This document shows positions 1-22,120 of a DNA stretch of 22,120 nucleotides, piece after piece; position 1 is the first letter of the stretch, and the number at the start of each line of letters is the position of its first letter. The stretch is from IMG/VR virus record IMGVR_UViG_3300048593_000294, positions 1 to 22,120 of that record; one strand, given 5' to 3'. This stretch comes from a virus. The notes beneath the pieces were generated by a model. That model had not been told where the DNA came from, ran no database searches, and was given only the letters and a program-made list of their open reading frames with translations. The translations under genes and the position numbers were made by a program.

Positions 1-2478
1 CCTTTCAGAGGCGAACTGCTCAGACTTTCTAGAAGAAATGTAGACCCGAGTCGCCACCATGCCGATCTTTAGGTGGGCTTGCTCATACCCCATCGATCGT
101 AAAATGTTCGATGTTCTTTTCGCTCCAGGCTGTTTATACCCGTACTTTTTAAGCGCCTCGTTTAGTCTGGAGATAACCACCAGGTCCTCGGATACCAGGC
201 TTTCCTCGATCGAGAGAACCTCCCGAATGTTCGATTCGTCGTCCGATACGGACTCCTCGATCATGTTCAGTTTTGCCTGGTTCGTCTCCGGCGCTGCGTT
301 CGGATTGAACTCCGACAGGTCAATATTCAATAACCAGGAACGGATCTCGCCGTCGTCGTTATCAATCGCCGAATAGAGCGCCTTCCAGTAGTCCTCGCCG
401 CGCTCCTCGAGGAGTGCTGCGCGACTCTCGAACCTGGTGGCGAATACGCCCCATCGCCTGTCGCCATGGTCCAGGACCAGGGCGTCGGCATGGTTCGTAC
501 AAGCGAGATAGTTCTGCGTATTGAGGACGTCGATCCCGTCCTGGCCCTTACGAACGACCTCGACGGTCTGGTTCGATATGAAAGGCTTTAGCTTGTTCAT
601 CACGTCGTGGCGGCTATGGCCGATTACCCGGATCTCCTCCAGGACGCCGACGCACGCGCCAGTCGCCCATCCGGTGAACGCGGAGAACAGGCTGTCGAGG
701 CTGATATTGCGGACGTGACGCTGTCCCATGGCCGCCGCCAGGACTCGGGCGATCGTGGTCTTTCCGTCGCCCTGGACGCCGAACAGGACCGGCGACCAGA
801 GGATCTTCTCGCCTGGGCGTTGTACGTTGTGGGCCATCCATTGAATGAGGATATCGGCGTCGTGATCCGAGAACGTGGTGCGGATATGCCGCTCGACTGT
901 TCGCCAGTTCTGGCCGGCGTGCCAGTCGGCGCGCTCGGCGACCGCATCCTGGCGATAGCTGTTCACGAACTGGAGACCCTTGTACTCGAAAAACGGGTCC
1001 GGAATACTTCCCTGCTTTGGCCAGTACATCTCGGCGTAGACGCATCGCCCGCCGTACTCGGCGAACATCTTGGTCGGTGCTTTCCTGTTGCCGTTCTGGT
1101 CGGCCGGCATATCGGCCGCGTACTTAATGTCGATCGACTTGGCCGGTGCGATTGCTCCGGTCTCGATCGAGTAAAACTCGGCCGACTTCTCGAGAAAGAC
1201 CCATTCGGACGTGAGGCCGGTCTCGCGGAGCGAATGCGAGAGGATCTCCCGCATTTCATCGGTCATTATGATTTTGCCGATATCGCCGACCGTCAGGTCA
1301 TACCCGAGTTTTTTCGCTCGACGCTTGAAGTCGTGCGACAGGCTTTTCGTGATCGCCGAACTGATCCCCCTTAATTTGCGGATCTCGGCCGCGCTCGAGT
1401 TCATCAAGTCGTCGATCGTGTTCGACGCCTCAATTAAAGCGCGCGCTCGATCGACCGAGGTCTGGTCGTGCTTAAACGGCCTGGGGGCGGCCTTACCCTG
1501 TCCCAGGCCGGTCTTAAAAAACTCCGCGGCCGGATGTTCACCCTGCGAGGCGCGAAACGCGCGCTCGGCGTCCTCGAGCGATCCGTCGAAATTTAACTGT
1601 ACGTTGGCCACCCAGGCGTCGAATGATCCCTGGAGTGGATCGCTTGCGTGGTCGGAGTGCCAGAGGCCCTCGCGGCCTGGGATCTCTCGCACGCATGGCT
1701 CGCCGGTCGCCGAGGGAGGAGCGTATCGCTTAGTCGCGCGGTCCTGCGTGTACCCATGCTCGGCCAGGATCTCGGGGACCGTATGCGCGCGATTGAATGG
1801 TGCGCGACAGTCGGACGTGTAGGCGAGTTTCCGGCCCGAGCGGCCTCCGCTGATCGCCAGGTGGGGCTTGGCGGGCTTGGCCAGGTGTTCGGATATGGCC
1901 GCGAAGAATTTCGCCTGGACGACGCGCAGATACTCCAGGTCGGTCGTGCATCGTTGCCAGAACTCCAGGAACGCATCAGGTAGCGCAGGACGGTCGTCCA
2001 GGCGTTTCCCGTTGGCGTATTGCTGCGTGCATAGCGTCCCGTCCTTGGTGCGGTACAGGAGGCCAGGGACGCAGTCCTGGAGGTTCGGACTGTCGGCGCG
2101 CAGTTCGAGGACGGTCCCGGTCTCTTTCGAGGAGAACTTGATCCAGGATAGATCGGGTTCCTCGGCGAACGCAGAGCGCCCACCTGAACCTGGTCGCGTG
2201 GAATTGCTGCGAGCGCCTGCGGCCATGATGGCCTGGAGGTCGAACCCGAGCGCGCGCATCCCGACGACAGATAGTTCCCAGTTGTCCGGGTCGATACTGC
2301 ATAGGCGATTAGGCGCAAGCGGTACACCGTACCCGGTGGCGTTGTCCTCGATCTCCCAGGCTCGGCCTTCGGGCGAGTTCCACCCCAGGCCGATCGGGCG
2401 CTTTTCGTAGTCGTGCAGTCTGACCAGGTTAAAACCCGCGTCTAATAATCGTCTTGCTTCGCTCAGGTCAGGCTGCAT
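1..2478 (-). CDS. Bifunctional primase-polymerase / SF3-type helicase, replication protein (3' end cut by window)
   Basis: This frame is open from the ATG at 2478 to the left edge (826 codons, no stop), so the C-terminus lies outside. The N-terminus resembles the bifunctional primase/polymerase (AEP, Prim-Pol) fold: KRPIGLGW near residue 26, GYGVPLAP near 49, then SIDPD with D63 and D65 as candidate metal ligands. A middle segment beginning CRAPFNRAHTVPEIL resembles linkers seen in phage primases. The C-terminal half has a Walker A, GVQGDGKTT with K573, an acidic Walker B-like GVLEEIR, then NYLACTNHADAL and GDRRWGVF, as in the P4/D5 primase-helicases (DUF5906-like). The likely role is phage replication initiation, priming and unwinding. 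It is the last gene of the leftward early operon. The ATG at 2478 lies 10 nt after GGAG; an in-frame ATG at 2487 is possible but only 1 nt from GGAG. It overlaps the upstream gene by 11 nt. The fold assignment is from motifs only. Confidence 0.88.
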   Translation of the reverse strand, partial: MQPDLSEARRLLDAGFNLVRLHDYEKRPIGLGWNSPEGRAWEIEDNATGYGVPLAPNRLCSIDPDNWELSVVGMRALGFDLQAIMAAGARSNSTRPGSGGRSAFAEEPDLSWIKFSSKETGTVLELRADSPNLQDCVPGLLYRTKDGTLCTQQYANGKRLDDRPALPDAFLEFWQRCTTDLEYLRVVQAKFFAAISEHLAKPAKPHLAISGGRSGRKLAYTSDCRAPFNRAHTVPEILAEHGYTQDRATKRYAPPSATGEPCVREIPGREGLWHSDHASDPLQGSFDAWVANVQLNFDGSLEDAERAFRASQGEHPAAEFFKTGLGQGKAAPRPFKHDQTSVDRARALIEASNTIDDLMNSSAAEIRKLRGISSAITKSLSHDFKRRAKKLGYDLTVGDIGKIIMTDEMREILSHSLRETGLTSEWVFLEKSAEFYSIETGAIAPAKSIDIKYAADMPADQNGNRKAPTKMFAEYGGRCVYAEMYWPKQGSIPDPFFEYKGLQFVNSYRQDAVAERADWHAGQNWRTVERHIRTTFSDHDADILIQWMAHNVQRPGEKILWSPVLFGVQGDGKTTIARVLAAAMGQRHVRNISLDSLFSAFTGWATGACVGVLEEIRVIGHSRHDVMNKLKPFISNQTVEVVRKGQDGIDVLNTQNYLACTNHADALVLDHGDRRWGVFATRFESRAALLEERGEDYWKALYSAIDNDDGEIRSWLLNIDLSEFNPNAAPETNQAKLNMIEESVSDDESNIREVLSIEESLVSEDLVVISRLNEALKKYGYKQPGAKRTSNILRSMGYEQAHLKIGMVATRVYISSRKSEQFASER

Positions 2479-3298
2479 ATTGCTCATTCTCCAGAATCTC
2501 TATTTGTTTTAGTACATCCTCCTCACGCCGCCCAAAATAGCGCGCAAGATAGTCCAGGTTCGCGTGATAAACCGCGGGCAGGCCGCGCGCCGCATGAACC
2601 CATCGCGCGCAGCACGTCAAACACGTTTTAAACCGATACCCCGCACCTGGCCCATGATCGCAGGCGAATAACTGGCGGGTATTGGTCGGCGCAGGGCCGA
2701 CCTCATTCTTTTTTATATGCACCGGCCGCACTCCCTCGAGCGCCACACCGTAGGCCGCGCCTTCAACGGGGCCGACCTGGCGCTCTCGAATGGTGAACGG
2801 CTTTCGCCTGGCGAGTTCGTTTATCAGGCGCGGGTAGCTGTTGAGTAGATCCGCCTGGTGTTGTGCGTCGTCTGATCTGAGGTCGTACATCCAGACCGTC
2901 TCGATCGCTCCCGAGTAGAGCATTTCGCGAATTGCTCGGCGCTTTTCGTCACTTGGCGGGTTCGTCACGATTATTTCGTGGAATACTTTTTTGCTCCCGA
3001 CGTCGGAGATATGGATCCCGTTCGGGTATCTCGCGCACAATTCACCGCCATAAATCGCCTTGACCGCTGCGGAGGCGATTCTATGTAGAACGCCCTCGCC
3101 ACCGAACCCGGAGAGATCATCGCCTCCGTGTTTATGCCCTGGGTAGTGGGCGAAATGCTTGGCGATCTTGCTGTGCGGGTGGCCGCTCTTGAGCATGACG
3201 TCGCACCCTTTCTCACACCGATATTTTGTTTTCCAGGTTGCCCTGTTAACGCTTATTGCCTGTCCGCTCTCATCGAATACTAGGCTCCTTGCATACAT
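2468..3298 (-). CDS. CoiA-like protein with N-terminal Cys/His cluster
   Basis: 276 aa. The ATG at 3298 follows AGGGAG with 8-nt spacing. The N-terminus has YRCEKGCDVML, then KHFAHYPG, resembling the Cys/His N-terminal module of CoiA-family competence proteins, followed by HRIASAAVKAIYGG. The middle, SDVGSKKVFHEIIVTN followed by an EKRRAIREML helix, could be a degenerate restriction-endonuclease-like core with D and E ligands. The C-terminal third has more Cys/His (ACDHGPG, KTCLTCCARW), suggesting a second metal site. CoiA proteins act in recombination or processing of incoming DNA during transformation. Here the gene sits between small early genes and the primase-helicase, so a role in phage DNA replication or processing is inferred. 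It overlaps the primase start. It could instead be a structural zinc protein without nuclease activity. Confidence 0.6.
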   Translation of the reverse strand: MYARSLVFDESGQAISVNRATWKTKYRCEKGCDVMLKSGHPHSKIAKHFAHYPGHKHGGDDLSGFGGEGVLHRIASAAVKAIYGGELCARYPNGIHISDVGSKKVFHEIIVTNPPSDEKRRAIREMLYSGAIETVWMYDLRSDDAQHQADLLNSYPRLINELARRKPFTIRERQVGPVEGAAYGVALEGVRPVHIKKNEVGPAPTNTRQLFACDHGPGAGYRFKTCLTCCARWVHAARGLPAVYHANLDYLARYFGRREEDVLKQIEILENEQYAA

Positions 3299-3331
3299 AG
3301 ATTTTTCTCCCTAAACCGAATCTAAACATCT

Positions 3332-3484
3332 TTATAAAACGTCAATGGCCCAAGCGATAAAAAACATCGTCGCGACCAGGAGACCCAGGGCGACGAGGAT
3401 CTCGACCCAAACCGCGTCGCGTTTTTGTACTGGCCGGCTTGCATCGAGGAACGCCTGGCGATTGTCTTTTCCGAAGTCTTGCAT
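3332..3484 (-). CDS. Small single-span membrane protein (50 aa)
   Basis: A short gene of 50 codons plus TAA. It starts at ATG 3484, two bases after the TGA of the gene upstream (TGAGATG) and close behind a GGGG stretch that can act as ribosome binding site. The protein begins MQDFGKDNRQ, is charged over about 28 residues, then has one hydrophobic segment (VEILVALGLLVATMFFIAWA) near the C-terminus. This gives a tail-anchored or N-in membrane topology. It fills what would otherwise be a 187-bp hole in a tightly packed operon, which supports it being real. Function is unknown. Confidence 0.6.
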   Translation of the reverse strand: MQDFGKDNRQAFLDASRPVQKRDAVWVEILVALGLLVATMFFIAWAIDVL

Positions 3485-3485
3485 C

Positions 3486-3710
3486 TCATACCCCTAGTTT
3501 GTCGAAAATAGCGTTCTGAATGGCGCGCGCGTAGGAATAAGGCATTCCGTCATGCGCCGCGTGTAGTGCCTTGACCAGGTCGGCGTCGAGCATGAGATCG
3601 CGCCGGCCGTTGGCCAGGCTCTCGGCGATCACGTCGGCCGCCGCGTCGACGTTCTGGTTCGGACCGACCAGGAGGCGGAGCGCCTGGACGAGGGTTTCGC
3701 GGTAGTTCAT
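3486..3710 (-). CDS. Hypothetical early protein (74 aa)
   Basis: 74 aa, starting at ATG 3710 and overlapping the stop of the DUF3310 gene by four bases (ATGA). The sequence (MNYRETLVQALRLL at the start, then alternating amphipathic stretches) looks fully helical and soluble with no Cys. I recognise no family. The position in the leftward early operon between the DUF3310 gene and the small membrane protein suggests an early accessory role. Codon use, with GCC/GAC/CTG and CCWGG-rich DNA, matches its neighbours. Confidence 0.7.
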   Translation of the reverse strand: MNYRETLVQALRLLVGPNQNVDAAADVIAESLANGRRDLMLDADLVKALHAAHDGMPYSYARAIQNAIFDKLGV

Positions 3711-4006
3711 TTCGCGGCCCCCAGGACTTCGCGGATCGATCCCGAGTATTGAGAGGCGGCCACCTGGACGCGCGCCTGGTCGGCCGCGTGAGTCTCAATC
3801 TCGATCAGCTTGTCCAGGTAGTGCCTGGCCTTTTTCAGGTCGTCCAGGCCGCCCTTGTCTTTCCACCGCGCCAGGTACTTGATCGCGTTCCCCTGGAGGA
3901 ATCCCGCGAAGGCCTCGGTCGTCATCCAGGACTGCATGGCGTCCCAGGGCTGTATCGATTTACTGGTGTAGTGCGTGCCTTGAACTTGATAGTCATTCGC
4001 CGACAT
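3707..4006 (-). CDS. DUF3310 family phage protein
   Basis: 99 aa. The start ATG 4006 follows AAGGAG with about 5-nt spacing. The core pattern GTHYTSKSIQPWDAM, then GFLQGNAIKYLARWKDKGG, then DDLKKARHYLDKLIE is the DUF3310 (SaV-like) signature of small phage proteins, found alone or fused to nucleotide kinases. Its biochemical role is not established. Here it is the second gene of the leftward operon leading to the primase-helicase, so a link to nucleotide or replication metabolism is plausible but inferred. About 25 C-terminal residues after the conserved core are variable. Confidence 0.85.
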   Translation of the reverse strand: MSANDYQVQGTHYTSKSIQPWDAMQSWMTTEAFAGFLQGNAIKYLARWKDKGGLDDLKKARHYLDKLIEIETHAADQARVQVAASQYSGSIREVLGAAK

Positions 4007-4016
4007 AGTGGCTCCT

Positions 4017-4220
4017 TTAAATGAATGCGAGGGACGCGCCCAGGAGGAACGCGAGGATCAGGGCGGCCGTGACCTCGCCCGAGAACTGGAAACGGTTGTC
4101 CGACTTATACGGCCCTTGGATCGGGATAAAGTATTCCGGCTCGCGCAGGGCCTCGGCGCGCGTGCGATAAACCTTCTCGGACCGAAGGCGGGTCATTAAC
4201 TCCTGGAAATGGTCGGGCAT
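4017..4220 (-). CDS. Small membrane protein, first gene of leftward operon (67 aa)
   Basis: I chose ATG 4220 (protein begins MPDHFQELMTRL) because it follows AAGGAG with 8-nt spacing. An in-frame upstream ATG at 4259 has no such site and would begin close to the -10 region of the promoter. The protein has a charged N-terminal part and one C-terminal hydrophobic helix (VTAALILAFLLGASLAFI), ending right after it. It is the first gene after the promoter at 4250-4278, so it is probably strongly expressed early. No family is recognised. A membrane role such as exclusion or host takeover is only a guess. Confidence 0.7.
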   Translation of the reverse strand: MPDHFQELMTRLRSEKVYRTRAEALREPEYFIPIQGPYKSDNRFQFSGEVTAALILAFLLGASLAFI

Positions 4221-4249
4221 TTTTAACTCTCCTTGTTTAGCGAAATGCT

Positions 4250-4278
4250 TTTGTAACACGTTATTTAGATTATCTCAA
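4250..4278 (-). promoter_or_regulatory. Leftward early promoter, TTGAGA-17-TACAAA
   Basis: On the minus strand TTGAGA (4278-4273) and TACAAA (4255-4250) are separated by 17 bp in an AT-rich island of otherwise GC-rich DNA. The predicted start site is about 23 nt before the AAGGAG-led ATG at 4220. The -35 hexamer is identical to that of the rightward promoter at 5590. This is a hand match to sigma-70 consensus (5/6 and 4/6). Confidence 0.55.
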
Positions 4279-4296
4279 CATAACAGACAAAAAGGT

Positions 4297-4366
4297 GGGC
4301 GACGACCTGAGCGTGGGACCGCGTGAAGGAGTGGCACGCATTAAACGCATTTAACAGGCGTCGCCC
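4297..4366. repeat. Inverted repeat GGGCGACG/CGTCGCCC with internal direct repeat
   Basis: GGGCGACG (4297-4304) is perfectly complementary to CGTCGCCC (4359-4366). One unpaired A next to the arm allows ACCT/AGG to extend it. Between the arms is an AT-rich direct repeat, ACGCATTAA then ACGCATTTAA, around 4337-4354. The element fills the gap between the end of the lipoprotein gene and the leftward early promoter. It lacks a T-run, so it does not look like a simple terminator. A regulatory or replication-origin role is conceivable but unsupported. Confidence 0.35.
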
Positions 4367-4377
4367 ATAAGGGGAGA

Positions 4378-4578
4378 CTATTTTTTCATCGGTGGCTTGT
4401 CGGCCGGCTTCGGATCACCAGGCATCAGTTCGAACGCCTCGGGCGAGTCGCCGATCACCTGGTGATAGATATCGCATTTCGAGAACGCGCAAGTAATCGC
4501 GAAGTAGCGCCTGGCGTCTGGCGACTGGTGAGGCGCGCACCCCGCCAGGAGTGCCAGGACCACCAGGGCGGCCCTCAT
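4378..4578 (-). CDS. Small lipoprotein, co-transcribed with Cro-like gene (66 aa)
   Basis: 66 aa, starting at ATG 4578 and overlapping the stop of the Cro-like gene by ATGA. A longer reading of this frame upstream is just open sequence behind the regulator genes. The N-terminus MRAALVVLALLAGCA is a short type II signal peptide with lipobox LAGC, predicting lipidation at Cys14. The mature part has two more Cys (CAFSKC) and a Pro/Lys-rich tail (DPKPADKPPMKK). It probably sits in the outer or inner membrane facing the periplasm. Small early or lysogenic phage lipoproteins are often superinfection-exclusion factors; that role here is inferred only from position and type. Confidence 0.72.
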   Translation of the reverse strand: MRAALVVLALLAGCAPHQSPDARRYFAITCAFSKCDIYHQVIGDSPEAFELMPGDPKPADKPPMKK

Positions 4579-4844
4579 GCGTTCGCTCTCACGTTGAGCG
4601 CGGTCAGGAACTCGCCAGGGATCAGGTCGGCCGGCGTGAGAGTGATCCCTCTCTCGCGTGCGGCCCGAATGATCGGCCGCCATTGGCGCATGGGGATCGC
4701 GCCGCCGGTCCCGCCGTCGTCGCGTGAGCGGAACCATAGCGTCACGGTCGCCCGGTGGATACCGGCCGCCTCGGCGAGTGCCGACCGGGTCCCGAACAGG
4801 GCGACCAGGCGTTCGGCCGGTAATTGAGACGTTGAAGTTCGCAA
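4575..4844 (-). CDS. Cro-like HTH regulator with carph-isopro-type domain, TTG start
   Basis: 89 aa. No ATG is suitably placed; TTG at 4844 follows AGGAG with 6-nt spacing, so it is the supported start. The protein contains a helix-turn-helix, RSALAEAAGIHRATVTLWF, followed by GGTGGAIPMRQWRPIIRAAR, the pattern of the carph-isopro HTH proteins seen in proteobacterial phages and islands. It is divergent from the CI-like gene, separated by about 90 bp, and is therefore the likely Cro-type or lytic-switch regulator. The TTG start may keep its level low. A lipoprotein gene is coupled downstream by ATGA overlap. Confidence 0.78.
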   Translation of the reverse strand: MRTSTSQLPAERLVALFGTRSALAEAAGIHRATVTLWFRSRDDGGTGGAIPMRQWRPIIRAARERGITLTPADLIPGEFLTALNVRANA

Positions 4845-4869
4845 AGTGGTCTCCTGGATTCGGGTAGTG

Positions 4870-4917
4870 TTGCGTTTCTCTTGCCGGTAGTTTAGGCTTT
4901 CTCCTCGCGTTGTACAA
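4870..4917. promoter_or_regulatory. Divergent immunity promoters with GTTGTACAAC palindrome
   Basis: Leftward: TTGTAC (4917-4912) and TAAACT (4894-4889) spaced 17 bp, about 38 nt upstream of the Cro-like TTG. Rightward: TTGCGT (4870-4875) and TAGGCT (4893-4898), also 17 bp, a weak match. The two overlap, so firing one should interfere with the other. The perfect 10-bp palindrome GTTGTACAAC (4909-4918) covers the leftward -35 and is a candidate operator. All calls are consensus matches by eye. Confidence 0.35.
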
Positions 4918-4936
4918 CCATAAACGAACCGAACGA

Positions 4937-5533
4937 ATGACGAACGAAGTCGATACGGCCGCCCTCCAGGGGCGGATCCGGGACCTGAAACTCACGCAGC
5001 GCGCCCTCGCCGACCACCTGGGGGCGGACGCGGCCACCGTCTCGATGCTCCTGCGAGGCAAGCGCCGGATCACGCCGGCCGAGGCCAAACAGATCGCCGG
5101 GTTCCTGAAGTTGCCGATCGGCGAGGTCCTGCGCCTCTTTGGCGTGGACGTCTCCGAGGATCCGAAGGTCCCGATCATCGGCCATTGCACGACCGAGGGA
5201 CTGGTCACGCTCCTGGCTCCTGGCGCGCAGGACCGCGCGGCCGGTCCGGCCGACCTCCCGCGCGACGCTCGAGCGATCCAGGTACGCGCCCCCTTCGCAC
5301 CAGGCGACGGATGGATCCTGTTCTGCGAAGGGACTCAGAGCGACCCGAGCGAGAACCTGGGGCGCTTGTGCCTGGCGGCCACCGCCACCGGCGAACTGAC
5401 CATCGGCGTGATCGCCCGCGGGTATCAGTCCGGCCGGTTCAACATTACGACGCGTTTCTTCACCCTGGGCGCGCCCCTCGAGAATCTCTCCCTGGTCTGG
5501 GCGTCGCGCGTGCTTTGGATCCGCCCCAGTTAA
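4937..5533 (+). CDS. CI-like repressor: XRE HTH plus degenerate S24-like C-terminal domain
   Basis: 198 aa from ATG 4937. An in-frame TTG at 4910 would lengthen it by nine codons, but it lies in the palindrome and has no ribosome binding site; neither start has a clear Shine-Dalgarno. Residues about 10-65 form an XRE-type HTH (LTQRALADHLGADAATVSML, then KRRITPAEAKQIAGFL). After a linker, VPIIGHCTTEG and the DGWILFCEG and LCLAATATGEL stretches follow the layout of LexA/CI S24 domains. However, the GxSM serine region reads APFAPGD, and the usual Lys region reads TIGVIARG, so the Ser-Lys dyad seems absent. It probably represses the lytic promoters and dimerises through the C-domain, but autocleavage on DNA damage is doubtful. 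Confidence 0.82.
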   Translation: MTNEVDTAALQGRIRDLKLTQRALADHLGADAATVSMLLRGKRRITPAEAKQIAGFLKLPIGEVLRLFGVDVSEDPKVPIIGHCTTEGLVTLLAPGAQDRAAGPADLPRDARAIQVRAPFAPGDGWILFCEGTQSDPSENLGRLCLAATATGELTIGVIARGYQSGRFNITTRFFTLGAPLENLSLVWASRVLWIRPS

Positions 5534-5567
5534 TAGCTTTACGCTATCAATATAATCGGTTTCGATT
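5533..5567. repeat. Two short dyads after the repressor gene, with a TATAAT box
   Basis: ATAGC-tttac-GCTAT (5533-5547) begins at the stop codon of the repressor. AATCG-gttt-CGATT (5554-5567) follows. A perfect TATAAT (5551-5556) lies between them but lacks a good -35 at 16-18 bp. The arms differ in sequence, so they are not copies of one operator. They could be weak terminator hairpins or operators in the AT-rich leader. Confidence 0.3.
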
Positions 5568-5589
5568 AGTATTTATTTTGTTCGATACG

Positions 5590-5618
5590 TTGAGAATCCC
5601 TCAATTCCATGATCTAAT
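5590..5618 (+). promoter_or_regulatory. Rightward early promoter TTGAGA-17-TCTAAT with overlapping dyad
   Basis: TTGAGA (5590-5595) and TCTAAT (5613-5618) with exactly 17 bp between match sigma-70 consensus at 5/6 in each box. This is the best promoter seen in the window. The perfect dyad TTGAG-aatcc-CTCAA (5590-5604) covers the -35 and is a candidate repressor operator. It would drive the operon from 5666 to 10128. Confidence 0.65.
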
Positions 5619-5665
5619 CTTTTTAACGGGAATTAACCCGCAAACCAAAACTAAGGAACGAAAAA

Positions 5666-5881
5666 ATGAAAGGGATCGTAATCGGAATAGCGTTTCTCCT
5701 CGGCGTGTCTTACCTGGCCACATCAGACTGGGCCGACGCCGCCGTCACGGAAATGACGAAACCCGCTCCGACCTCGGCCGCCGAACGGGACTACACCGTT
5801 TGCAAATTGCAGTTAGACCTGGCCGACCCGTTCGTGACCCGCGGGAAAGTTTTGGCCGTTTGCGGCTCGGCCCCTAAGTAA
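5666..5881 (+). CDS. Small exported protein with two cysteines (71 aa)
   Basis: 71 aa. The ATG 5666 follows AAGGAA closely. The N-terminus MKGIVIGIAFLLGVSYLA is a signal peptide or uncleaved membrane anchor. The remainder is hydrophilic with two Cys (near residues 46 and 66) that could form a disulphide in the periplasm. It is the first gene behind the rightward promoter, so it is probably made early. No known family is recognised. With the lipoprotein that follows, it forms a small envelope-directed pair upstream of the recombination genes; an exclusion or anti-host role is possible but unproven. Confidence 0.65.
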   Translation: MKGIVIGIAFLLGVSYLATSDWADAAVTEMTKPAPTSAAERDYTVCKLQLDLADPFVTRGKVLAVCGSAPK

Positions 5882-5889
5882 TCGCCGCT

Positions 5890-6075
5890 ATGAAAATCGC
5901 CGCCCTCCTCGCCGTGTTGCTCTTGTCTGGATGCGCCGGTATGCCGCGCGCCTATACGGACCACATTCCGGCGTTCAATCCCCCAAGCGATCCCTATCAG
6001 CGATATCTGCTCGAGAGCGAGCGCCGTCGCATCATTTACCGGGCGTTTCACCCGGTCCGTCGTCATCGTCATTAA
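5890..6075 (+). CDS. Small lipoprotein (61 aa)
   Basis: 61 aa from ATG 5890, eight bases after the previous stop. MKIAALLAVLLLSGCAG is a textbook lipoprotein signal with lipobox LSGC and lipidation predicted at Cys15. The mature part is rich in Tyr, Arg and His and ends in a basic tail (FHPVRRHRH), which could contact membrane phosphates or LPS. It lies between the exported 71-aa protein and the Sak4-like ATPase gene. I recognise no family. It may act in superinfection exclusion, by analogy with other small phage lipoproteins. Confidence 0.65.
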   Translation: MKIAALLAVLLLSGCAGMPRAYTDHIPAFNPPSDPYQRYLLESERRRIIYRAFHPVRRHRH

Positions 6076-6099
6076 CCACCACAACCAAGAGAGAAAGAA

Positions 6100-6837
6100 A
6101 TGGCCTTTAACCTTGCCAGTATCAGTAAAACGAAACAAATGCGCGCCCCCCGGATCCTCCTGGCCGGCGTCCCCAAGGTCGGGAAATCGACCTTCGCGGC
6201 CGGCGCGCCGAACCCGATCGTCATCCGCACCGAGGACGGCCTGGACGGTGTCGACGTGAGCGCGTTTCCCCTCGCCGAGACTTACGAGGACGTCCTCTCC
6301 GCGATCGATACCCTCACGAACGAGGATCACGACTTCGAGACCGTGGTACTGGACTCGACCGACTGGCTCGAACCGCTCTTGTGGGCTTACGTCTGCAAGA
6401 AAAACAAATGGGACAACATCGAGGCCGCCGGCTACGGGAAGGGATACGTCGCGGCCGCCGACGAGTGGCGAAACTTGATCGAGCGCCTGGAGATCCTGCG
6501 CGCCAAACGAAATATGGCCGTGATCCTAATCTCTCACGTCTCGATCAAACGCATCGAGGACCCAATGACTGAGGGATACGATTCCTACGTCTTAAAGACG
6601 AACGCCAAGGCCTCCGCGATCCTCGAGGAGTACGCCGACGTCGTCGGATTCGCCGCCCACCGCGTCGCCGTAAGAAAGACGGACGCCGGGTTCGGCCAGA
6701 AACAAAATAAGGCCCTGAAAACGGGCGACCGAGTTCTCCACCTGGAACCTAGTCCGGCCTATCCCTCCGGGACTCGGTTCGGGTTCGAGGACTGCGACCT
6801 TACCTGGGAGGCCCTGGCCAACCAGTTCCCCGCGTGA
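6100..6837 (+). CDS. Sak4-like RecA-core ATPase, recombination (single-strand annealing type)
   Basis: 245 aa; ATG 6100 lies just behind the AGAGAAAGAAA leader. The fold is a RecA-like P-loop ATPase of the phage AAA/Sak4 type: Walker A GVPKVGKST at residues 23-31 (K29), Walker B TVVLDSTDWL near residue 80, and a later strand VILISHVSIKRIED with the conserved His used as a sensor in this family. Sak4 proteins promote annealing or strand exchange of ssDNA and are usually found with a phage SSB. Here the next gene is a DUF669 SSB-like protein, and a nuclease and a resolvase follow, giving a complete recombination module. Alternative family names for similar proteins are 'ATP-binding protein' or AAA_24. 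Confidence 0.83.
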   Translation: MAFNLASISKTKQMRAPRILLAGVPKVGKSTFAAGAPNPIVIRTEDGLDGVDVSAFPLAETYEDVLSAIDTLTNEDHDFETVVLDSTDWLEPLLWAYVCKKNKWDNIEAAGYGKGYVAAADEWRNLIERLEILRAKRNMAVILISHVSIKRIEDPMTEGYDSYVLKTNAKASAILEEYADVVGFAAHRVAVRKTDAGFGQKQNKALKTGDRVLHLEPSPAYPSGTRFGFEDCDLTWEALANQFPA

Positions 6838-6878
6838 CCCAGTAGTTAACTAAACCACAACCCATAGGAATTAACCCA

Positions 6879-7340
6879 ATGAAAACCTCTTTCGAGTTCG
6901 ACCCCTCAACCATTGAACCCGCCGAACAGTTCGAGCGCGGACCGATCCCTCCTGGGACGTATGCCGCGAGCATTCTCGACGCCGAACTTAAGGACACGAA
7001 GTCGGGATCCGGCCAGTACATAAACGTCACGCTCGAGATCACGACCGGCGACTTCTCAGGCCGGCGCGTCTGGCACGTCCTGAACGTGGTCAACCAGTCG
7101 GCCCAGGCCGAGTCGATCGGTCGCCAGGAACTCGCGGGACTTTGCTCCGCGATTGGCCTGGACAAAATGAAACACATCGAGGACTTGATCGGCCATGACG
7201 TCCAGGTCGAGATCGGGATCGATAAAAAGGACGCGACCAGGAACCGGGTCTATGGATACAAGGCCGGCGCGAAGGCCGCCCCCGTGCGGGTCGAACAACC
7301 CGCCCAGGCGTCCGCGGCTCCTCGTAAGGCGTGGAAATGA
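6879..7340 (+). CDS. DUF669 SSB-like protein
   Basis: 153 aa from ATG 6879 behind AGGAA. The sequence (GPIPPGTYAASILDAELKD, then YINVTLEITTGDFSGRRVW) follows the DUF669 pattern, an OB-fold-like family regarded as phage single-stranded DNA-binding proteins. The C-terminus is Ala/Pro-rich and basic (APRKAWK) rather than the acidic tip of bacterial SSB. It is directly downstream of the Sak4-like ATPase, a known pairing. It overlaps the start of the methyltransferase-like gene by ATGA. Its likely job is to coat ssDNA during recombination and replication. Confidence 0.82.
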   Translation: MKTSFEFDPSTIEPAEQFERGPIPPGTYAASILDAELKDTKSGSGQYINVTLEITTGDFSGRRVWHVLNVVNQSAQAESIGRQELAGLCSAIGLDKMKHIEDLIGHDVQVEIGIDKKDATRNRVYGYKAGAKAAPVRVEQPAQASAAPRKAWK

Positions 7341-8083
7341 AGATATTGATCGCCTGCGAATATAGCGGGGCGGTCAGGGATTCATTTTTGGCATCGGGTC
7401 ACGACGCTATGAGTTGTGACCTGCTTCCTACCGATTCCCCAGGTCCTCATTATCAGGGAGACATTCGAGACGTTTTAGATTTCCCCTGGGATTTGATGAT
7501 CGCCCACCCACCCTGTACGGACCTGGCCGTCTCTGGCGCGGCTTGGTTTAAAAATAAACGAATGATCGGCGCGCAACAAACGAGCGTCTCCTTTTTTATG
7601 ATGCTTGCGAAGGCCGATATCCCGAGGATTTGTATAGAAAACCCTGTTTGTATTATGTCGACCCTCTGGCGCAAGCCGGATCAGATCATTCAACCCTATA
7701 TGTTCGGCCATAGGGAAACGAAGGCGACCTGTTTATGGCTTAAAGGTCTCCCGCCTCTCACGCCCACCGATAACGTGAAAGAGGAAACGATGGCACTCCC
7801 CGAGCGGGAAAGGATGCGGCTCCATTACCTTCCGCCGTCCGCCGATCGTTGGAAGATTAGAAGCGAGACATTTTCGGGTATCGCGAAAGCAATGGCCGAG
7901 CAATGGGGAAATATTGAGGATACACAAAACAATGGAAGACAGAATCCTATGCTCGGCGTGCCAGTCCCGCCGACTATTAAAAAACATGACCAAGATTCAG
8001 CGCGGAAAGATCCGCCGGTGGATCTGCAACGAGTGCCAGGACAAGATCAGCGTATCAATCTATCAAAGGAAACCAAAAAATGA
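7337..8083 (+). CDS. Cytosine-C5 methyltransferase-like protein
   Basis: 248 aa. I chose ATG 7337, which overlaps the previous stop (ATGA); an in-frame GTG at 7331 adds two codons. MKILIACEYSGAVRDSF is an AdoMet motif I equivalent, CDLLP a motif II acidic residue, HPPC (residues 57-60) matches the PC catalytic motif IV, and ENP (101-103) stands for the ENV of motif VI. The family-like part ends near residue 194 at AEQWGN. The last ~54 residues are Pro/Lys/Gln-rich and coincide with another gene in a different frame, so they are probably read-through extension. No long target-recognition domain is visible, so the protein is shorter than standalone m5C enzymes. The DNA is less GC-rich than its neighbours, suggesting transfer. 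It may modify phage DNA against restriction. Confidence 0.7.
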   Translation: MKILIACEYSGAVRDSFLASGHDAMSCDLLPTDSPGPHYQGDIRDVLDFPWDLMIAHPPCTDLAVSGAAWFKNKRMIGAQQTSVSFFMMLAKADIPRICIENPVCIMSTLWRKPDQIIQPYMFGHRETKATCLWLKGLPPLTPTDNVKEETMALPERERMRLHYLPPSADRWKIRSETFSGIAKAMAEQWGNIEDTQNNGRQNPMLGVPVPPTIKKHDQDSARKDPPVDLQRVPGQDQRINLSKETKK

Positions 8084-8105
8084 GCGAACCAGTAAAAGCG
8101 AGTGA
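7932..8105 (+). CDS. Small zinc-ribbon protein (57 aa), overlapping the methyltransferase-like gene
   Basis: 57 aa from ATG 7932; an in-frame TTG at 7914 is an alternative. Two CxxC knuckles, CSAC (7-10) and CNEC (32-35), are separated by a basic stretch (LLKNMTKIQRGKIRRW), the layout of a zinc ribbon. The tail is Lys/Arg/Ser-rich. The first 152 bp overlap the 3' end of the methyltransferase-like gene in another frame. The general pattern recalls the Mu Com translation regulator, but I see no further similarity. It could bind nucleic acid or act with the methyltransferase. The Cys pattern is much more protein-like than the other frame here. Confidence 0.6.
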   Translation: MEDRILCSACQSRRLLKNMTKIQRGKIRRWICNECQDKISVSIYQRKPKNERTSKSE

Positions 8106-8250
8106 TATCGACAAACTGAACCGGCCGATCTGGCCAGGGTTCACCCTGAAGGACTGCGCCCGTCGGGCCGGGTCGCTCGAGATCCTGGCCTCGCCCAGTC
8201 GCATCGAGGGAACGCTGTTCTATCCCGACGGCCGCGTGGTGAAACCATGA
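8080..8250 (+). CDS. Hypothetical protein (56 aa)
   Basis: A short gene: ATG 8080 overlaps the methyltransferase stop (ATGA) and follows AAAGGAAACC. TGA at 8248-8250 overlaps the start of the nuclease gene (ATGA). The product begins MSEPVKASDIDKLNRPIW and has a compact mix of hydrophobic and charged residues, a single Cys and no membrane segment. Both overlaps and the ribosome binding site support it as real. Its function is not recognised; the context is the recombination operon. Confidence 0.65.
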   Translation: MSEPVKASDIDKLNRPIWPGFTLKDCARRAGSLEILASPSRIEGTLFYPDGRVVKP

Positions 8251-9416
8251 CGCCGATCCCTGAACGCTCAAACACCACCGCCCAGGCGATCGTGAAGTGG
8301 TGGGGAAAGAAACCCCAAGGGAACCGCCCTCACCTGGGCGCGTCGCAGATCGGGAAGTCGTGTTCGCGCGCGCTCTGGTACTCCTTCCGGTGGGCTAAGA
8401 CTCCGGCCTTCGAGGGTCGTATGCTCCGCCTGTTCGACCGCGGGAACCTCGAGGAAACCAGGTTCGTCGACGAGTTGCGCGCGATCGGCGTCGAGGTCTG
8501 GGACCTGGACCCGGATACAAACAAACAGATCCGCATCGAGGCCGTGAATGGTCACTTCGCGGGTTCGTGCGACGGAGTGGCGAAAGGCCTCCCGGAGGCC
8601 CCGAAAACGGCCGCCGTCCTGGAGTTCAAGACTCACGGAGAAAAGTCGTTCGCGACGCTCGAGTCTAAAGGCGTCCAGGTCGCGAAACCGGAGCATTACG
8701 CCCAGGTCCAGGTTTACATGAAGTTCCTCGAACTGGACCGCGCCCTGTACCTGGCGGTCAACAAAAACACGGACGCCCTTTATTCCGAGTGGATCCATGT
8801 CGACGCGGACGCGGCCGACCGCCTGGTCGCGAAGGCCGAGGCGATCATTAACGCGACGACGCCCCCGGAGCGCATGGCCGACGACCCGAATTTCTTCGAG
8901 TGCCGTTGGTGCGACTTTAAGGATCTCTGTCACGGCCAGGCCGTCGCCGAGGTGAACTGTCGGACGTGTTGCCATGCGTCGCCCGTTGAGAATGCCTCCT
9001 GGCGTTGCGAGAACCATAATCGGATCATCGCCGAAAAGGTTCAGCGCGAGGCGTGCGACTCCCACCTGTTTATCCCGCCGTTGATTCCGTTCGCCGACGC
9101 GATCGACGGAGGCGAGGCCTCGGTCACTTACCAGGTGAAAGGCGCGGACCGCACGTTCACCAATAGCGCGACGCCAGGCCATTACAAGAGTCGCGAGATC
9201 CGTCTCCTGGACCCTTCGCTCCTGGGCGACAAAATGATCGAGGACGTGAAAACGATTTTCGGCGCGGAGATCACGGCCGGGAACTCGATCGCGGAAATGC
9301 CCGACGACCTCGAGGCCGTGTACGCGGAGGATAAGTCGCCGGCCGGTAAGAAAGCGAAAAAGGAGATCGAGAAAAACAAGGCGTCGATCGCCGCATTAAA
9401 GGAAATGAAACCATGA
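8247..9416 (+). CDS. PD-(D/E)XK exonuclease of the Cas4/AddB-like Fe-S type
   Basis: 389 aa from ATG 8247. The nuclease core shows GSCDGV (D109), LEFKT (E126, K128) and QVQVY (Q153, Y157), matching the RecB-family PD-(D/E)XK arrangement with the QxxxY motif. Cys39 in GKSCSRALWY together with C219, C222 and C228 in ECRWCDFKDLC match the four-cysteine Fe-S cluster of Cas4/AddB nucleases. A second Cys/His cluster (C238, C241, C242, C254, H257) could bind zinc. The C-terminus is Lys/Glu-rich and helical. It probably resects DNA ends to feed the Sak4/SSB-like annealing system encoded upstream. A resolvase gene overlaps its stop (ATGA). The enzymatic direction is not predictable from sequence. Confidence 0.85.
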   Translation: MTPIPERSNTTAQAIVKWWGKKPQGNRPHLGASQIGKSCSRALWYSFRWAKTPAFEGRMLRLFDRGNLEETRFVDELRAIGVEVWDLDPDTNKQIRIEAVNGHFAGSCDGVAKGLPEAPKTAAVLEFKTHGEKSFATLESKGVQVAKPEHYAQVQVYMKFLELDRALYLAVNKNTDALYSEWIHVDADAADRLVAKAEAIINATTPPERMADDPNFFECRWCDFKDLCHGQAVAEVNCRTCCHASPVENASWRCENHNRIIAEKVQREACDSHLFIPPLIPFADAIDGGEASVTYQVKGADRTFTNSATPGHYKSREIRLLDPSLLGDKMIEDVKTIFGAEITAGNSIAEMPDDLEAVYAEDKSPAGKKAKKEIEKNKASIAALKEMKP

Positions 9417-9904
9417 GCGACGAAAAATATTACCTGGGCCTGGATCCAGGCTTAGACGGAGCGGTCGCCGTGGTGAACGCGCGCGGGTATCTGGTGGACG
9501 TGATCGATTTCCCGACGGTCGAGATTAAGGTCGGGAAGGCAACAAAGCGCCGAGTCGCGGCCGCCGCCCTGGTAACGGAAGTCGAACTTTATACGCGGTT
9601 CGAGTGCGAGGCGATTGTCGAGTCGGTCGCATCGCGTCCAGGCCAGGGCGTCGCGTCCGTCTTTTCGTTCGGCCAGACCTACGGGTTAATCGTCGGCGTC
9701 CTGGCCGGCCTCAAGGCTCCGACGGAGTTCGTCACGCCGAGGGTCTGGACGAAGGAAATGCGCGTCACCGAAGGCAAGGGAGGCAGCCGCGAGAGGTGTA
9801 TGCAGATCTGGCCAGACCGCGCGCATATCTTCGCCCGCGTGAAGGATCACAACCGCGCGGACGCCGCCCTCCTGGCGCGGTACTTGTGGGAGAAATCTAA
9901 ATGA
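9413..9904 (+). CDS. RuvC-like Holliday junction resolvase
   Basis: 163 aa, ATG 9413 overlapping the nuclease stop by ATGA. YYLGLDPGLDGAVAVV gives the first RNase-H-fold aspartate (D11). CEAIVESVASRPGQG supplies E70. KDHNRADAALLARY at the C-terminus carries D145 and D150, the last acidic group of RuvC/phage resolvases. Length and motif order match RuvC. The product likely resolves Holliday or branched phage DNA before packaging or during recombination. It is the fourth recognisable member of the recombination module (Sak4, SSB-like, nuclease, resolvase). Its start region carries three CCWGG sites in 18 bp (9433-9450). Confidence 0.88.
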   Translation: MSDEKYYLGLDPGLDGAVAVVNARGYLVDVIDFPTVEIKVGKATKRRVAAAALVTEVELYTRFECEAIVESVASRPGQGVASVFSFGQTYGLIVGVLAGLKAPTEFVTPRVWTKEMRVTEGKGGSRERCMQIWPDRAHIFARVKDHNRADAALLARYLWEKSK

Positions 9905-10128
9905 GTCTAATGCTTACGGCCTATCTGCTCGAGAAATACGGCCCCAGGCTCGGCATGGAGGAGGTGGCCGAGGTCCTGCGGATCTCGAAAGGGAATCTCA
10001 CGAACCGGCTGTATCGCGGAGAGATCACGCTCCCGACGTACCTGGACGGAGGTCGTCGGTTTTGTGCCGCGGAGGATCTCGCGGCTTACCTGGGTCGATT
10101 GCGTGAAACTGCTCGGGCCGAAGGTTAG
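9901..10128 (+). CDS. Excisionase/AlpA-like HTH protein
   Basis: 75 aa, ATG 9901 overlapping the resolvase stop by ATGA. KYGPRLGMEEVAEVLRISKG, then NLTNRLYRGEITLPTYLDGG and a following RRFCAAEDLAAYL, match the small winged-HTH proteins of the PrtN/AlpA/excisionase type. It sits at the end of the rightward operon, tail-to-tail with the integrase, which is a typical place for Xis. Its likely role is recombination directionality, possibly also regulation. Its last 104 bp are also read, on the other strand, as the C-terminal tail of the integrase. Confidence 0.72.
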   Translation: MSLMLTAYLLEKYGPRLGMEEVAEVLRISKGNLTNRLYRGEITLPTYLDGGRRFCAAEDLAAYLGRLRETARAEG

Positions 10129-11092
10129 TGTATCGCTTGAGCATAGACCAGGATCGGTGGCCCGAGACCAGGGCCACCTGTTCGATCGTGTACCCCATCT
10201 CGAACAACCTGGAGACCGCCTCATGGCGCAGATCGTGGAAATGAAGGTCCTCGATGCGCGCGACTTTGCACGCCAGGAGAAACTGGTCCGAGATCCATTC
10301 CGGCGAGACCGGAAAGATCGGGCCGTCGCCCTTGGCCTGGAGCATGAGGATCTCGAGCGCGTTTCCCAGGAGCGGGATTACGTCCGTATGGCCTTCGCGC
10401 TGTCGCGGGTGCTTACGGTCGCGGATCGTGAGGAGGCGTTTCTCCTGGTCGACGTCTCGCCATTCCAGGCGCACGAACTCGCCTCGCCTCATGCACGTTA
10501 GAACCGCCAGGTCGTAGATATCGCGCAGCATGGCCGGCATGACCGCACGCAGGGCCGTCTCCTCATCGCTCGAGATCCGGCGCTCGCGTGCCTTGCCAGG
10601 ACCCACCAGGGCCAGGTGATCCAGGAGTGGCCGCGCCTGGGCGACAGGATCGCCCCAGTCCTCGCCGAGTGTGATCCGCGCGTACTTGAGCGCGGTCCCC
10701 AGTTTCGAGACCTCCATCCCGATCGTGTACGGTCCCGCGCCGTCTTTCTTGCGCTTGGTGCAATACTGCGCGATTCGTTTGGGCGTGAGGTTCGCGACCC
10801 GATCGTCGCCGAGTTCGCGCTCGAGGTGTCGCAGCATATAGACCTCGTTGGACTGCGGCTCGATCGGCCGCGCCCCCATTTCCCGGAGTTCCTGGTACGC
10901 CTCGATCGCCTGGGCGACGGTCGCGCCGTTCGGGGCCGAAGGCGAGCGCCCCAGGTCGATCGCGCTCTCGGCCTGGCGCGCCCACCTGTCGGCCTCGGCG
11001 CGGGTCTTGAACGTCTTGCACGCGGTCTTTGCGCCCTTGCGACGCACCAGGACGCGGAAGGTCCCGGCTTTGGTTTCTGAGATCGTGGCCAT
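10025..11092 (-). CDS. int: Tyrosine recombinase integrase
   Basis: 355 aa from ATG 11092; the frame is open further upstream to 11407 but that part is low-complexity Arg/Ser sequence overlapping the endolysin gene. The N-terminus (MATISETKAGTFRVLVRRKG) is an arm-binding-type domain, followed by a core-binding domain (ATVAQAIEAYQEL). The catalytic set is visible: R202 in CMRRGEF, H286 and R289 in HDLRHE, H312 in SGHRSW, Y321 in LKRYTNL. A further 34 residues follow the tyrosine (HAIDPGKPRDPPRHK...), longer than in many integrases, and overlap the excisionase-like gene on the other strand. It inserts and excises the phage genome at attP/attB. Confidence 0.93.
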   Translation of the reverse strand: MATISETKAGTFRVLVRRKGAKTACKTFKTRAEADRWARQAESAIDLGRSPSAPNGATVAQAIEAYQELREMGARPIEPQSNEVYMLRHLERELGDDRVANLTPKRIAQYCTKRKKDGAGPYTIGMEVSKLGTALKYARITLGEDWGDPVAQARPLLDHLALVGPGKARERRISSDEETALRAVMPAMLRDIYDLAVLTCMRRGEFVRLEWRDVDQEKRLLTIRDRKHPRQREGHTDVIPLLGNALEILMLQAKGDGPIFPVSPEWISDQFLLACKVARIEDLHFHDLRHEAVSRLFEMGYTIEQVALVSGHRSWSMLKRYTNLRPEQFHAIDPGKPRDPPRHKTDDLRPGTSGA

Positions 11093-11095
11093 CGA

Positions 11096-11112
11096 CTGAT
11101 ACGCTGATACGC
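11096..11112. repeat. Tandem 8-bp repeat CTGATACG x2
   Basis: CTGATACG occurs twice head-to-tail (11096-11103, 11104-11111), ending four bases upstream of the integrase ATG on the minus strand. The inverted copy lies at 11299-11306. It may serve as integrase/Xis arm sites and could let the protein repress its own gene. Confidence 0.5.
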
Positions 11113-11259
11113 GAGGAGGCACAAAAGTAGCACGCGCCAGGCGAACAGAGTGGTATCGAGTTGTAGAAAGTGCTTGATTTACCGAGGTCGCCGCTCTAGG
11201 ATTGCCCCGTTGCCTCCGTAGCTCATCGCGAAGGAGAGCGAGGTTCCATGCGGGTCTCC

Positions 11260-11296
11260 GGCCGGACGTATCGCGAAAAATATCACTCGTCCGGCC
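11260..11296. repeat. 9-bp perfect inverted repeat GGCCGGACG/CGTCCGGCC
   Basis: Arms 11260-11268 and 11288-11296 with a 19-nt AT-rich loop. For leftward late transcription it lies between the endolysin gene and the integrase, but no T-run follows on that strand, so it is not a classic terminator. It may be part of attP or a roadblock/attenuator. Confidence 0.5.
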
Positions 11297-11352
11297 TGGC
11301 GTATCACTTCGCGACGCGCTCGAACCTCTACGCCGTGAGACTTTCTCAATGC

Positions 11353-11889
11353 TTAGGCCAACATTGAACCGGCCTTGACCTTCACGGCCGCGACTCGGTT
11401 CAACCATCCTTTGCCGTAAACGTCGAAAGTGGAAAGGCTTCGATAGAAGTCCTCCTTCGCCTGGCTGAACTTGTCGATCAGATCGATCGGGTCGGCCGCC
11501 TGGACCGCCGCCATCGTGATCGGACCCAGGCCACCGTCGGCGTTCAGGCCGAGCGCGGTCTGCAAGAGCTTGATCGAACGACCTGGGCCGGCGTTGACGC
11601 CCATATCAAAGATCAAATAATCGACGCCGCCAGGCAGTTCGTCGGCGCGCACCGCGTCCCAGTACTTACGCTTGTACAAAGGCTCGACGTCCGCGGGCGT
11701 GAGTTTCCGCATCTGGTCATGCGTGACCTGGTGGCCGACGTGGTTCTCCCAGTTGTGCTGCGTCACGCCGAGCATGGTCGAACCAGGCCGGCCGTCGGGT
11801 AGCTTGTTACCAGGATCGCGGACGTCGTCCGTAAAACCGCCCTCACTCGCGAGCATTTGCTCGAATGCTTGTTTCCAGTTCTCTATCAT
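11353..11889 (-). CDS. Endolysin, glycoside hydrolase family 108
   Basis: 178 aa from ATG 11889, with GGAG 8 nt upstream. The N-terminus FEQMLASEGGFTDD carries the GH108 signature with catalytic Glu16. VRDPGNKLPDGRPGSTMLGV matches the DPG...T.GVT region. The C-terminal half (GLNADGGLGPITMAAVQAAD) is the peptidoglycan-binding-3-like part typical of this family. No signal peptide is present, so release depends on the holin encoded two genes upstream. It cleaves the glycan backbone of peptidoglycan at lysis. Its start overlaps the i-spanin stop. Confidence 0.88.
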   Translation of the reverse strand: MIENWKQAFEQMLASEGGFTDDVRDPGNKLPDGRPGSTMLGVTQHNWENHVGHQVTHDQMRKLTPADVEPLYKRKYWDAVRADELPGGVDYLIFDMGVNAGPGRSIKLLQTALGLNADGGLGPITMAAVQAADPIDLIDKFSQAKEDFYRSLSTFDVYGKGWLNRVAAVKVKAGSMLA

Positions 11890-12290: not shown

Positions 12291-12910
12291 TACTTCACCC
12301 CCGATAACATTCTGGCCGCGATTGTGAGCATGGCTCGCGCGCGATCGAGGTCGATCGGCGCGTCCTTATAAAGGACCGTGATCTGGCCAATAAAACTGGT
12401 GTAGTCGGGCGGGACCGACGTCCTGCACGCGAACGTCGCGCCCTGTTCGATGTACCAGATCCCCGCCTCGCTCTGAGGCGTGGCGTAAAACCCGCAGGGA
12501 ACCTGGCCGGCCATGAGGTCGACGACGTCGGCGTTGTTCGCGTGGTTCGACGTAAACAGTCCGATATTCTCGCCCTCGAGGCTCTTGTTTCGCCGGCCCT
12601 CTCGATTCTCTGCGCGCACGATCACGCGCTTATTAAAAATCGTATCGACGCTCATTAGAGAGACCGCGACGACGTTCTGGTCCTTCATTAGTAGCGCGAT
12701 AGCGTCGTCGAATCGTGCCGCGTTGAGTTTCGGGAGTGCCGTTGACTTTTCGTAAACGCCGAGGAGAAAAGTTTTATTGTCGTATACGAAAAAACCGGCG
12801 TAGCCGATAAGGCCCAGGATAAGGACGACGGCCAATTTAAAAGGCGAGTCGATATAGGTCAGGATGGACATAACGCCATCCTTAACCTGGGAGGTTTGCT
12901 TGTCCTCCAT
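12290..12910 (-). CDS. T4-type holin-like protein
   Basis: 206 aa, ATG 12910 overlapping the tail-fibre stop (TAATG). A ~24-residue cytoplasmic N-terminus is followed by one membrane span (LAVVLILGLIGYAGFFV, residues 26-42) and a ~160-residue periplasmic domain with two Cys (QVPCGFY, TFACRTS). This matches the topology and length of T4 gpT holin rather than the two- or three-span lambda-like holins. In T4 the periplasmic domain receives antiholin signals. Its location directly before spanins and endolysin supports the lysis role. Assignment is by architecture and context plus general resemblance to annotated phage holins. Confidence 0.7.
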   Translation of the reverse strand: MEDKQTSQVKDGVMSILTYIDSPFKLAVVLILGLIGYAGFFVYDNKTFLLGVYEKSTALPKLNAARFDDAIALLMKDQNVVAVSLMSVDTIFNKRVIVRAENREGRRNKSLEGENIGLFTSNHANNADVVDLMAGQVPCGFYATPQSEAGIWYIEQGATFACRTSVPPDYTSFIGQITVLYKDAPIDLDRARAMLTIAARMLSGVK

Positions 12911-14385: not shown

Positions 14386-14394
14386 AATTTCCTC

Positions 14395-19129: not shown

Positions 19130-19139
19130 CGCGCCCCTA

Positions 19140-19610: not shown

Positions 19611-19612
19611 CT

Positions 19613-22056: not shown

Positions 22057-22120
22057 TAGAATTTAATCCCGATTTTGATCGCCGGCCATCGTTTATTAGG
22101 GTTATTCAATGCCCGATTAT
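22056..22120 (-). CDS. End of an upstream tail gene (partial)
   Basis: The last 21 codons of a leftward gene that begins outside the window, ending NNPNKRWPAIKIGIKF then TAA. The stop shares its final base with the tape measure ATG (TAATG), the same overlap used by other late genes. By position it may be a tail assembly chaperone-region protein; too little is visible to identify it. Confidence 0.55.
   Translation of the reverse strand, partial: NRALNNPNKRWPAIKIGIKF

Follow-up and report, generated by a model that had tools for sequence, protein, structure and literature searches.

CCWGG enrichment in a clade of freshwater siphophages: apparent selection on a five-base word and a possible link to host methylation

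Introduction

The stretch of DNA discussed here (the window) is the complete IMG/VR virus record IMGVR_UViG_3300048593_000294, 22,120 bp in length, and the subject is the excess of the word CCWGG (CCAGG or CCTGG), which occurs throughout the window and in the phages most closely related to it. CCWGG is the recognition sequence of Dcm and EcoRII, and a classic target of both methylation and restriction. Its enrichment is a clade trait of freshwater siphophages, the outcome of a long-term process that acts at the DNA level in coding and non-coding regions and has roughly doubled the number of sites; the freshwater origin is suggested by the accompanying contigs (lake metagenome-assembled genomes among the endolysin matches) rather than by sample records.

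The source of the window is a siphophage, which the presence of a CI-like repressor gene marks as temperate. The gene set also comprises a primase, a Sak4-like protein, an SSB-like protein (DUF669), a Cas4-type exonuclease, a Holliday-junction resolvase and a tyrosine integrase, as well as a GH108 endolysin, the central tail protein J, an NlpC/P60 protein and a tape measure protein. The nearest relative is IMGVR_UViG_3300044716_000419 (G001, 34,657 bp), with approximately 73-97% nucleotide identity across 17.9 kb. Matches between the two leave G001 at one end and re-enter it at the other, within gene J, so that G001 has the appearance of a circularly permuted genome with little missing. Relatives of J among named phages are distant (30% identity, Rhizobium and Bradyrhizobium phages).

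Distribution of CCWGG along the window

The record holds 234 CCWGG sites (126 CCAGG and 108 CCTGG on the plus strand), or 10.6 per kb, with densities of 12.6/kb at positions 1-3480, 13.4/kb at 3481-11100 and 8.0/kb at 11101-22120. The initial annotation had placed the excess at 3481-11100, where it is indeed real, but that range is too narrow, as the whole genome is affected. Its hand counts of 14 sites in 3481-4020, 16 in 8221-9240 and 17 in 10201-11100 are exact on recount, the zero-order expectations at local composition being 1.83, 3.60 and 3.58, and the individual sites that it named are all present. These sites and the principal genes are as follows, with observed and expected CCWGG numbers.

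1..2487, minus strand: primase/DUF5906 helicase gene, running off the end of the contig; 34 sites, 14.2 expected
4910..5533, plus strand: CI-like repressor gene; 10 sites, 3.8 expected
6879-7340: SSB-like gene (DUF669), which holds the CCWGG at 7237..7241
7237..7241, plus strand: CCAGG in the SSB-like gene, in the register NCC followed by AGG (Arg AGG)
7331..8083, plus strand: phrog_757 "DNA methyltransferase"-like gene, GC 51%; 4 sites, 3.1 expected, no excess
8247-9416: Cas4-type exonuclease gene, which holds the CCWGG at 8458..8462; 16 sites in all, 6.2 expected
8458..8462, plus strand: CCAGG in the exonuclease gene, in the register NCC followed by AGG (Arg AGG)
9433..9450: three CCWGG sites inside 18 bp, one of them (9446-9450) formed by Pro CCA before Gly
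10025..11407, minus strand: tyrosine integrase gene; 23 sites, 8.8 expected
11353..11889, minus strand: GH108 endolysin gene; 8 sites, 3.0 expected
12910..14385, minus strand: S74-chaperone tail gene; 2 sites, 4.0 expected, no excess
14395..18849, minus strand: central tail protein J gene, the second gene used for finding relatives; 43 sites, 19.9 expected
19963..22056, minus strand: tape measure gene, the basis of the clade tree; 21 sites, 9.4 expected

The gap over the S74-chaperone tail gene, which is probably a recent acquisition, is matched by the phrog_757 gene, which is largely absent from G001. That genes with the look of recent acquisitions lack the excess indicates that the process that builds up CCWGG is slow. 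Next to the lysis genes lies a member of phrog_31287, a small family of no assigned function that is common to both subclades of the group described below (window 12290-12910; L017:15913-16527).

Codon-preserving expectations and neighboring words

Since zero-order and Markov expectations were judged too weak alone, codon-preserving null models were employed. Within genes, 222 CCWGG sites are observed against 87 under a shuffle that keeps codon use, 96 when codon use is kept per gene, and 104 when codon use is kept together with the dinucleotide at the junction between third and first codon positions (z about 16-18). CCWGG is the most over-represented of the 512 5-mers under all three models and in every codon phase, and the non-coding portion adds 13 sites in 1,138 bases. 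The 5-mer count against a codon-shuffled null that the initial annotation had proposed thus leaves the excess standing on the phage, at rank 1 of 512, and the annotation's statement that sites occur in several codon phases extends to all three.

These numbers bear on the simplest explanation, namely that the excess is a by-product of codon or codon-pair preference, of GC content, or of the avoidance of neighboring words. Avoidance of CCAGC and other words does lift the expectation slightly, from 104 to 125; shuffles constrained to avoid CCAGC, CASTG and several palindromes give 102-125, which adds just 15-20 expected sites and disposes of compensation for avoided words as a cause. Given the 222 sites observed, in all phases, the sites in non-coding DNA and the lack of any such effect in outgroup phages, a by-product of codon use or word avoidance is refuted, and the explanation as a whole retains next to no probability.

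One widely used statistic does not register the excess: the Karlin/Burge ratio for CCWGG in the window is 0.87. Simulation shows, however, that this ratio drops from about 0.97 to 0.81 as selection raises CCWGG to the level seen in the window, because an abundant word dominates its own subwords. As the fall arises under pure selection, the value of 0.87 is not evidence against enrichment, and published surveys of over-representation that rely on this ratio can miss strong cases and would not list this clade.

Other words also depart from expectation. CCAGC/GCTGG, a non-palindromic word and the most under-represented 5-mer, is nearly absent, with one occurrence in the window (19698), none in the 34.7 kb of G001 (L067 and L068) and none in the L246 genes, where tens would be expected; this depletion is limited to the subclade of the window, G001 and L246. 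CASTG (CACTG/CAGTG) is absent, with 0 occurrences against about 17 expected in the window and 27 in G001, as if a TspRI-like specificity were being avoided, while GGCGCC, CCCGGG, CGTACG and GAGCTC are absent or nearly so in both. Above the codon-context null, subclade A shows CGGCCG at 2.0x, CTCGAG at 1.9x, and GGCC and GATC at 1.3x, possibly as further motif gains; subclade B does not.

The exact five-base word as the unit

Coupling between codons separated by a third indicates that the whole word is the unit concerned. In subclade A, C precedes 83% of the CTG and CAG codons that are followed by G and 47% of the others; the corresponding values are 57% and 27% in subclade B, and 26% and 30% in outgroup phages. 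For Gln, conditional on the amino acid and with either codon, the coupling has an odds ratio (OR) of 3.6 (p 5e-16) in subclade A, 1.6 (p 1e-4) in subclade B and 1.09 outside; subclade A consists of three related genomes, so that its p values overstate independence, and subclade B repeats the result. After NCC, AGG accounts for 42% of Arg codons in subclade A and 55% in subclade B, against 6% and 14% elsewhere, as compared to 10% versus 9% in outgroups. In subclade A, CCA and CCT together make up 82% of Pro codons before Gly, versus 32%. The earlier suggestion that CTG is favored where it makes CCTGG is borne out as well, Leu being CTG in 69% of contexts with C before and G after it and in 20% elsewhere. 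Outside CCWGG itself no base is preferred on either side, which sets the length of the motif at exactly 5 bp.

A shuffle that preserves codon pairs, which the initial annotation had named as the test that could overturn its reading, cannot move sites of phases 0 and 1, each of which is contained in a single codon pair, and its testable part is phase 2. There, C before CTG or CAG depends on the next base, and coupling of this kind around a fixed middle codon implies that the CCWGG density would not survive a shuffle of this type. Codon nulls, three-codon coupling and amino-acid-conditional tests give full support to the proposal that the excess goes beyond simple codon preference.

Divergence between the window and G001 points in the same direction. 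Synonymous third positions within CCWGG diverge about half as much as those of matched codons outside (OR 0.51, z -2.9, second of 98 words), which moderately favors selection on CCWGG. Furthermore, simulated selection for CCWGG with protein and codon use held constant yields a neighbor-word profile broadly like the observed one, and the one-substitution variants of CCWGG are depleted, most of them to 0.5-0.9, as they are under simulated whole-word selection. The excess apparently arises by selection on the exact five-base word.

The same tests weigh upon very short patch (Vsr) repair, which would convert CTWGG to CCWGG and is described as the classic cause of the CCAG/CAGG excess of E. coli (Bhagwat and McClelland 1992, as cited in PMC4687349). 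The E. coli signature resembles that of the clade in its enrichment of CCWGG-related words; in the window the tetranucleotides CCAG and CAGG are high and CCAA, CCTA and CTAG low, and CTWGG falls to 0.36-0.56 in subclade A, though only under the plain codon null. With Vsr repair at work, however, CTWGG in particular should be lost and every change should be a transition (T:A to C:G, at positions 2 and 4). The depletion of CTWGG is inconsistent across the clade, with CTAGG at 0.97-1.19 and CTTGG at 0.77-0.85 in subclade B, which amounts to no clear loss; position 1 takes part in the coupling once the amino acid is fixed, and the change of Arg CGN to AGG requires a transversion. In addition, G612, a Vsr-positive bacterial genome, reaches merely 1.16-1.27x, with no coupling. 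As the sole cause, Vsr is refuted by the neighbor-word and amino-acid-conditional tests and by the comparison of Vsr-carrying and Vsr-lacking genomes, and the explanation keeps very little probability.

Distribution of the excess among related phages

A maximum-likelihood tree of the tape measure protein places 15 enriched contigs, several of them near copies that leave about nine independent lineages, in one group with support of 98/100 and a single label change. All 15 are enriched 1.4-2.45-fold against the codon-context null, most at 1.8-2.4, at GC contents of 43-60%, and CCWGG ranks first of 512 in 12 of them. Enrichment extends to every contig with a tape measure that can be aligned over its length at 37% identity or more, while weaker matches are neutral or avoid the word (such as L298, 0/27, and L269, 2/31). 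The gene-J relatives L427, L428 and L430 are also enriched (1.8-2.0), and lake phages whose endolysin is 80-84% identical show CCWGG without excess or not at all (such as L089, 0/19). A clade-wide process that acts on the whole CCWGG word is thus close to certain.

Inheritance along with the tail module, together with the exact 5-bp palindrome and its genome-wide spread, would suit a phage-encoded DNA-binding protein that prefers CCWGG in condensation, packaging or transcription. No candidate gene for it was recognized, and most contigs of the clade cover tail genes only; such a protein is an improbable source of the excess.

Outside the clade, many contigs (L024-L063, L077-L127, L259-L298) have zero or near-zero CCWGG where 10-40 sites are expected, and CCWGG-specific restriction seems to be widespread. 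Avoidance of the site is thus seen in phages outside the clade, while inside it the site stands above expectation.

Bacterial genomes

CCAGGA occurs at 3.07/kb in the window, as compared to at most 1.62/kb in 385 alphaproteobacterial genomes and at most 2.24/kb in 229 genomes of Gammaproteobacteria as delimited by GTDB. In 20-kb bacterial samples the codon-context ratio for CCWGG is at most 1.55, save for one 5-kb contig at 1.71 in which the word is not rank 1. Bacterial cases of CCWGG excess do exist: G491 (L231, L379-L390), a genome of about 1.7 Mb, carries the largest genome-wide excess among the bacteria covered, 1.4-1.6x, with weak whole-word coupling. Its relatives G612, G1036 and G1037 carry C5 methyltransferases and show little or no CCWGG excess.

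These surveys concern two explanations that look to the host. The first is adoption by the phages of a word that functions throughout the host genome, whether Chi-like, nucleoid or uptake, as raised by the initial annotation, or one for segregation. A frequency of about one CCWGG per 94 bp and the restriction to one clade would fit adaptation to a single host group, and G491 is a bacterium with an excess. So far, however, no surveyed bacterium reaches the phage level, with no host-level match in the 385 and 229 genomes, and CCWGG is a palindrome without the strand bias expected of such words (126/108). Known Chi, KOPS and uptake words are unlike a palindromic, strand-neutral word. This explanation is distinctly unlikely.

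The second, and the main rival, is a ratchet of the kind proposed for HIP1 (GCGATCGC) and its alternates in cyanobacteria, where high-frequency palindromes match solitary methyltransferases (PMC4390886). Methylation-biased mismatch repair in hosts with a CCWGG methyltransferase would create and fix CCWGG with no benefit to the phage, and the host genome should then share the excess. The genome-wide excess of G491, with its weak whole-word coupling, is in line with this, and the foreign-looking phage genes without excess are what slow amelioration predicts. Against it, the bacterial samples do not exceed the ratios cited above, as compared to 1.8-2.4 in most clade contigs, G491 has no C5 methyltransferase match, and the proposed mode of repair is itself unproven. 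A ratchet is an unlikely account, at a probability that still places it first among the rivals.

Methyltransferases and comparison with known systems

A word that is palindromic, degenerate at W and free of strand bias points to a CCWGG-specific enzyme. C5 methyltransferases (PF00145) were not found in 17 clade records, nor N4/N6 methyltransferases (PF01555) in 16 clade records including the window, the records being mostly fragments; any CCWGG methyltransferase is therefore probably encoded by the host. The phrog_757 protein shares 61-63% identity with gp12 of Prochlorococcus podoviruses and has no Pfam or NCBIfam match, a phmmer search against PDB being likewise empty; its gene has a GC content of 51% in a genome of 59%. 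As a cause of the excess this gene was rejected, since it is mostly missing from the equally enriched G001 and itself lacks an excess.

In the cyanobacterial genomes, as in the clade, a short palindrome is very frequent in genes and spacers, and there the palindrome is at the same time the target of a methyltransferase (PMC4390886). Those are bacterial chromosomes with a known methyltransferase, whereas here phages carry a 5-bp word and no such enzyme was found on the phage; HIP1 itself is not enriched. CCGG in Helicobacter is similarly a Type II site that is over-represented rather than avoided, without explanation, in bacterial genomes and at a Karlin ratio of about 1.4-1.5, as compared to about 2x on codon nulls in these phages (PMC4687349). 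The avoidance of restriction sites by phages (PMC6286503) represents the same selection on the frequency of Type II words, seen here for CASTG, GGCGCC and the GATC and GGCC of L249, and is opposite in sign to what is observed for CCWGG. L249 (11.5 kb, subclade B) combines both, with GATC (0/55) and GGCC (0/46) purged and 70 CCWGG sites, a 2.2x enrichment.

Proposed acquisition of a host self-mark

A methylation-linked signal, which the initial annotation had listed among its options, is the class of reading that fits the CCWGG excess best. Taken separately, the methyl mark as the cause of the excess has a probability that falls slightly short of even. Hosts of the clade would carry a CCWGG-specific DNA methyltransferase, and the phage would have multiplied this self-mark, such that the host enzyme methylates its genome at many sites. 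Heavily CCWGG-methylated phage DNA would then survive better, with a DISARM-like defense as the best-defined setting among those known; under a defense that methylation represses, the gain of CCWGG would be an evasive move, the reverse of deleting restriction sites. Selection of CCWGG gain because methylated phage DNA survives better in CCWGG-methylating hosts may have occurred, at somewhat less than an even chance, and among the mechanisms considered it is the preferred one.

The DISARM literature offers a precedent for several of these elements. The DrmAB complex is repressed by methylated DNA and attack is stronger on DNA that lacks the methylation motif (PMC9142583), while class 2 DISARM methylates CCWGG as a self mark (PMC12926258). 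Where methylation, including that of CCWGG, marks self and lack of the motif raises attack, gain of the motif would help a phage; neither of the two sources (PMC9142583, PMC12926258) describes a phage that escapes in this manner.

Several observations weigh against selection through a methyl mark. The binding of DISARM is itself independent of sequence, and class 2 DISARM has been reported to protect against modified phages too (PMC9142583). L431-L433, whose J is 44-47% identical and whose GC content is 38%, show no CCWGG enrichment. G491, a possibly incomplete genome, has no PF00145 or Vsr match, and its PF01555 matches are weak or broken. Host searches with J, the endolysin and the tape measure found no clade member in bacterial genomes, including 399 of Burkholderiales and the 385 of alphaproteobacteria. 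That the clade evades a methylation-sensing defense by multiplying the host's CCWGG self-mark, so that the host methyltransferase coats its genome, is conceivable but doubtful, and DISARM in particular is more doubtful still as the defense in question.

Concluding remarks

Phages are known for losing restriction sites, and here a whole clade has gained one while purging others. If methylation is the cause, motif gain would be a form of counter-defense that needs no phage gene, and one for which phage collections of any kind could be screened by means of codon-coupling tests. It would also offer a comparative handle both on the build-up of methyltransferase targets, as in HIP1 and the CCGG of Helicobacter, and on the response of phages to DISARM-type systems.

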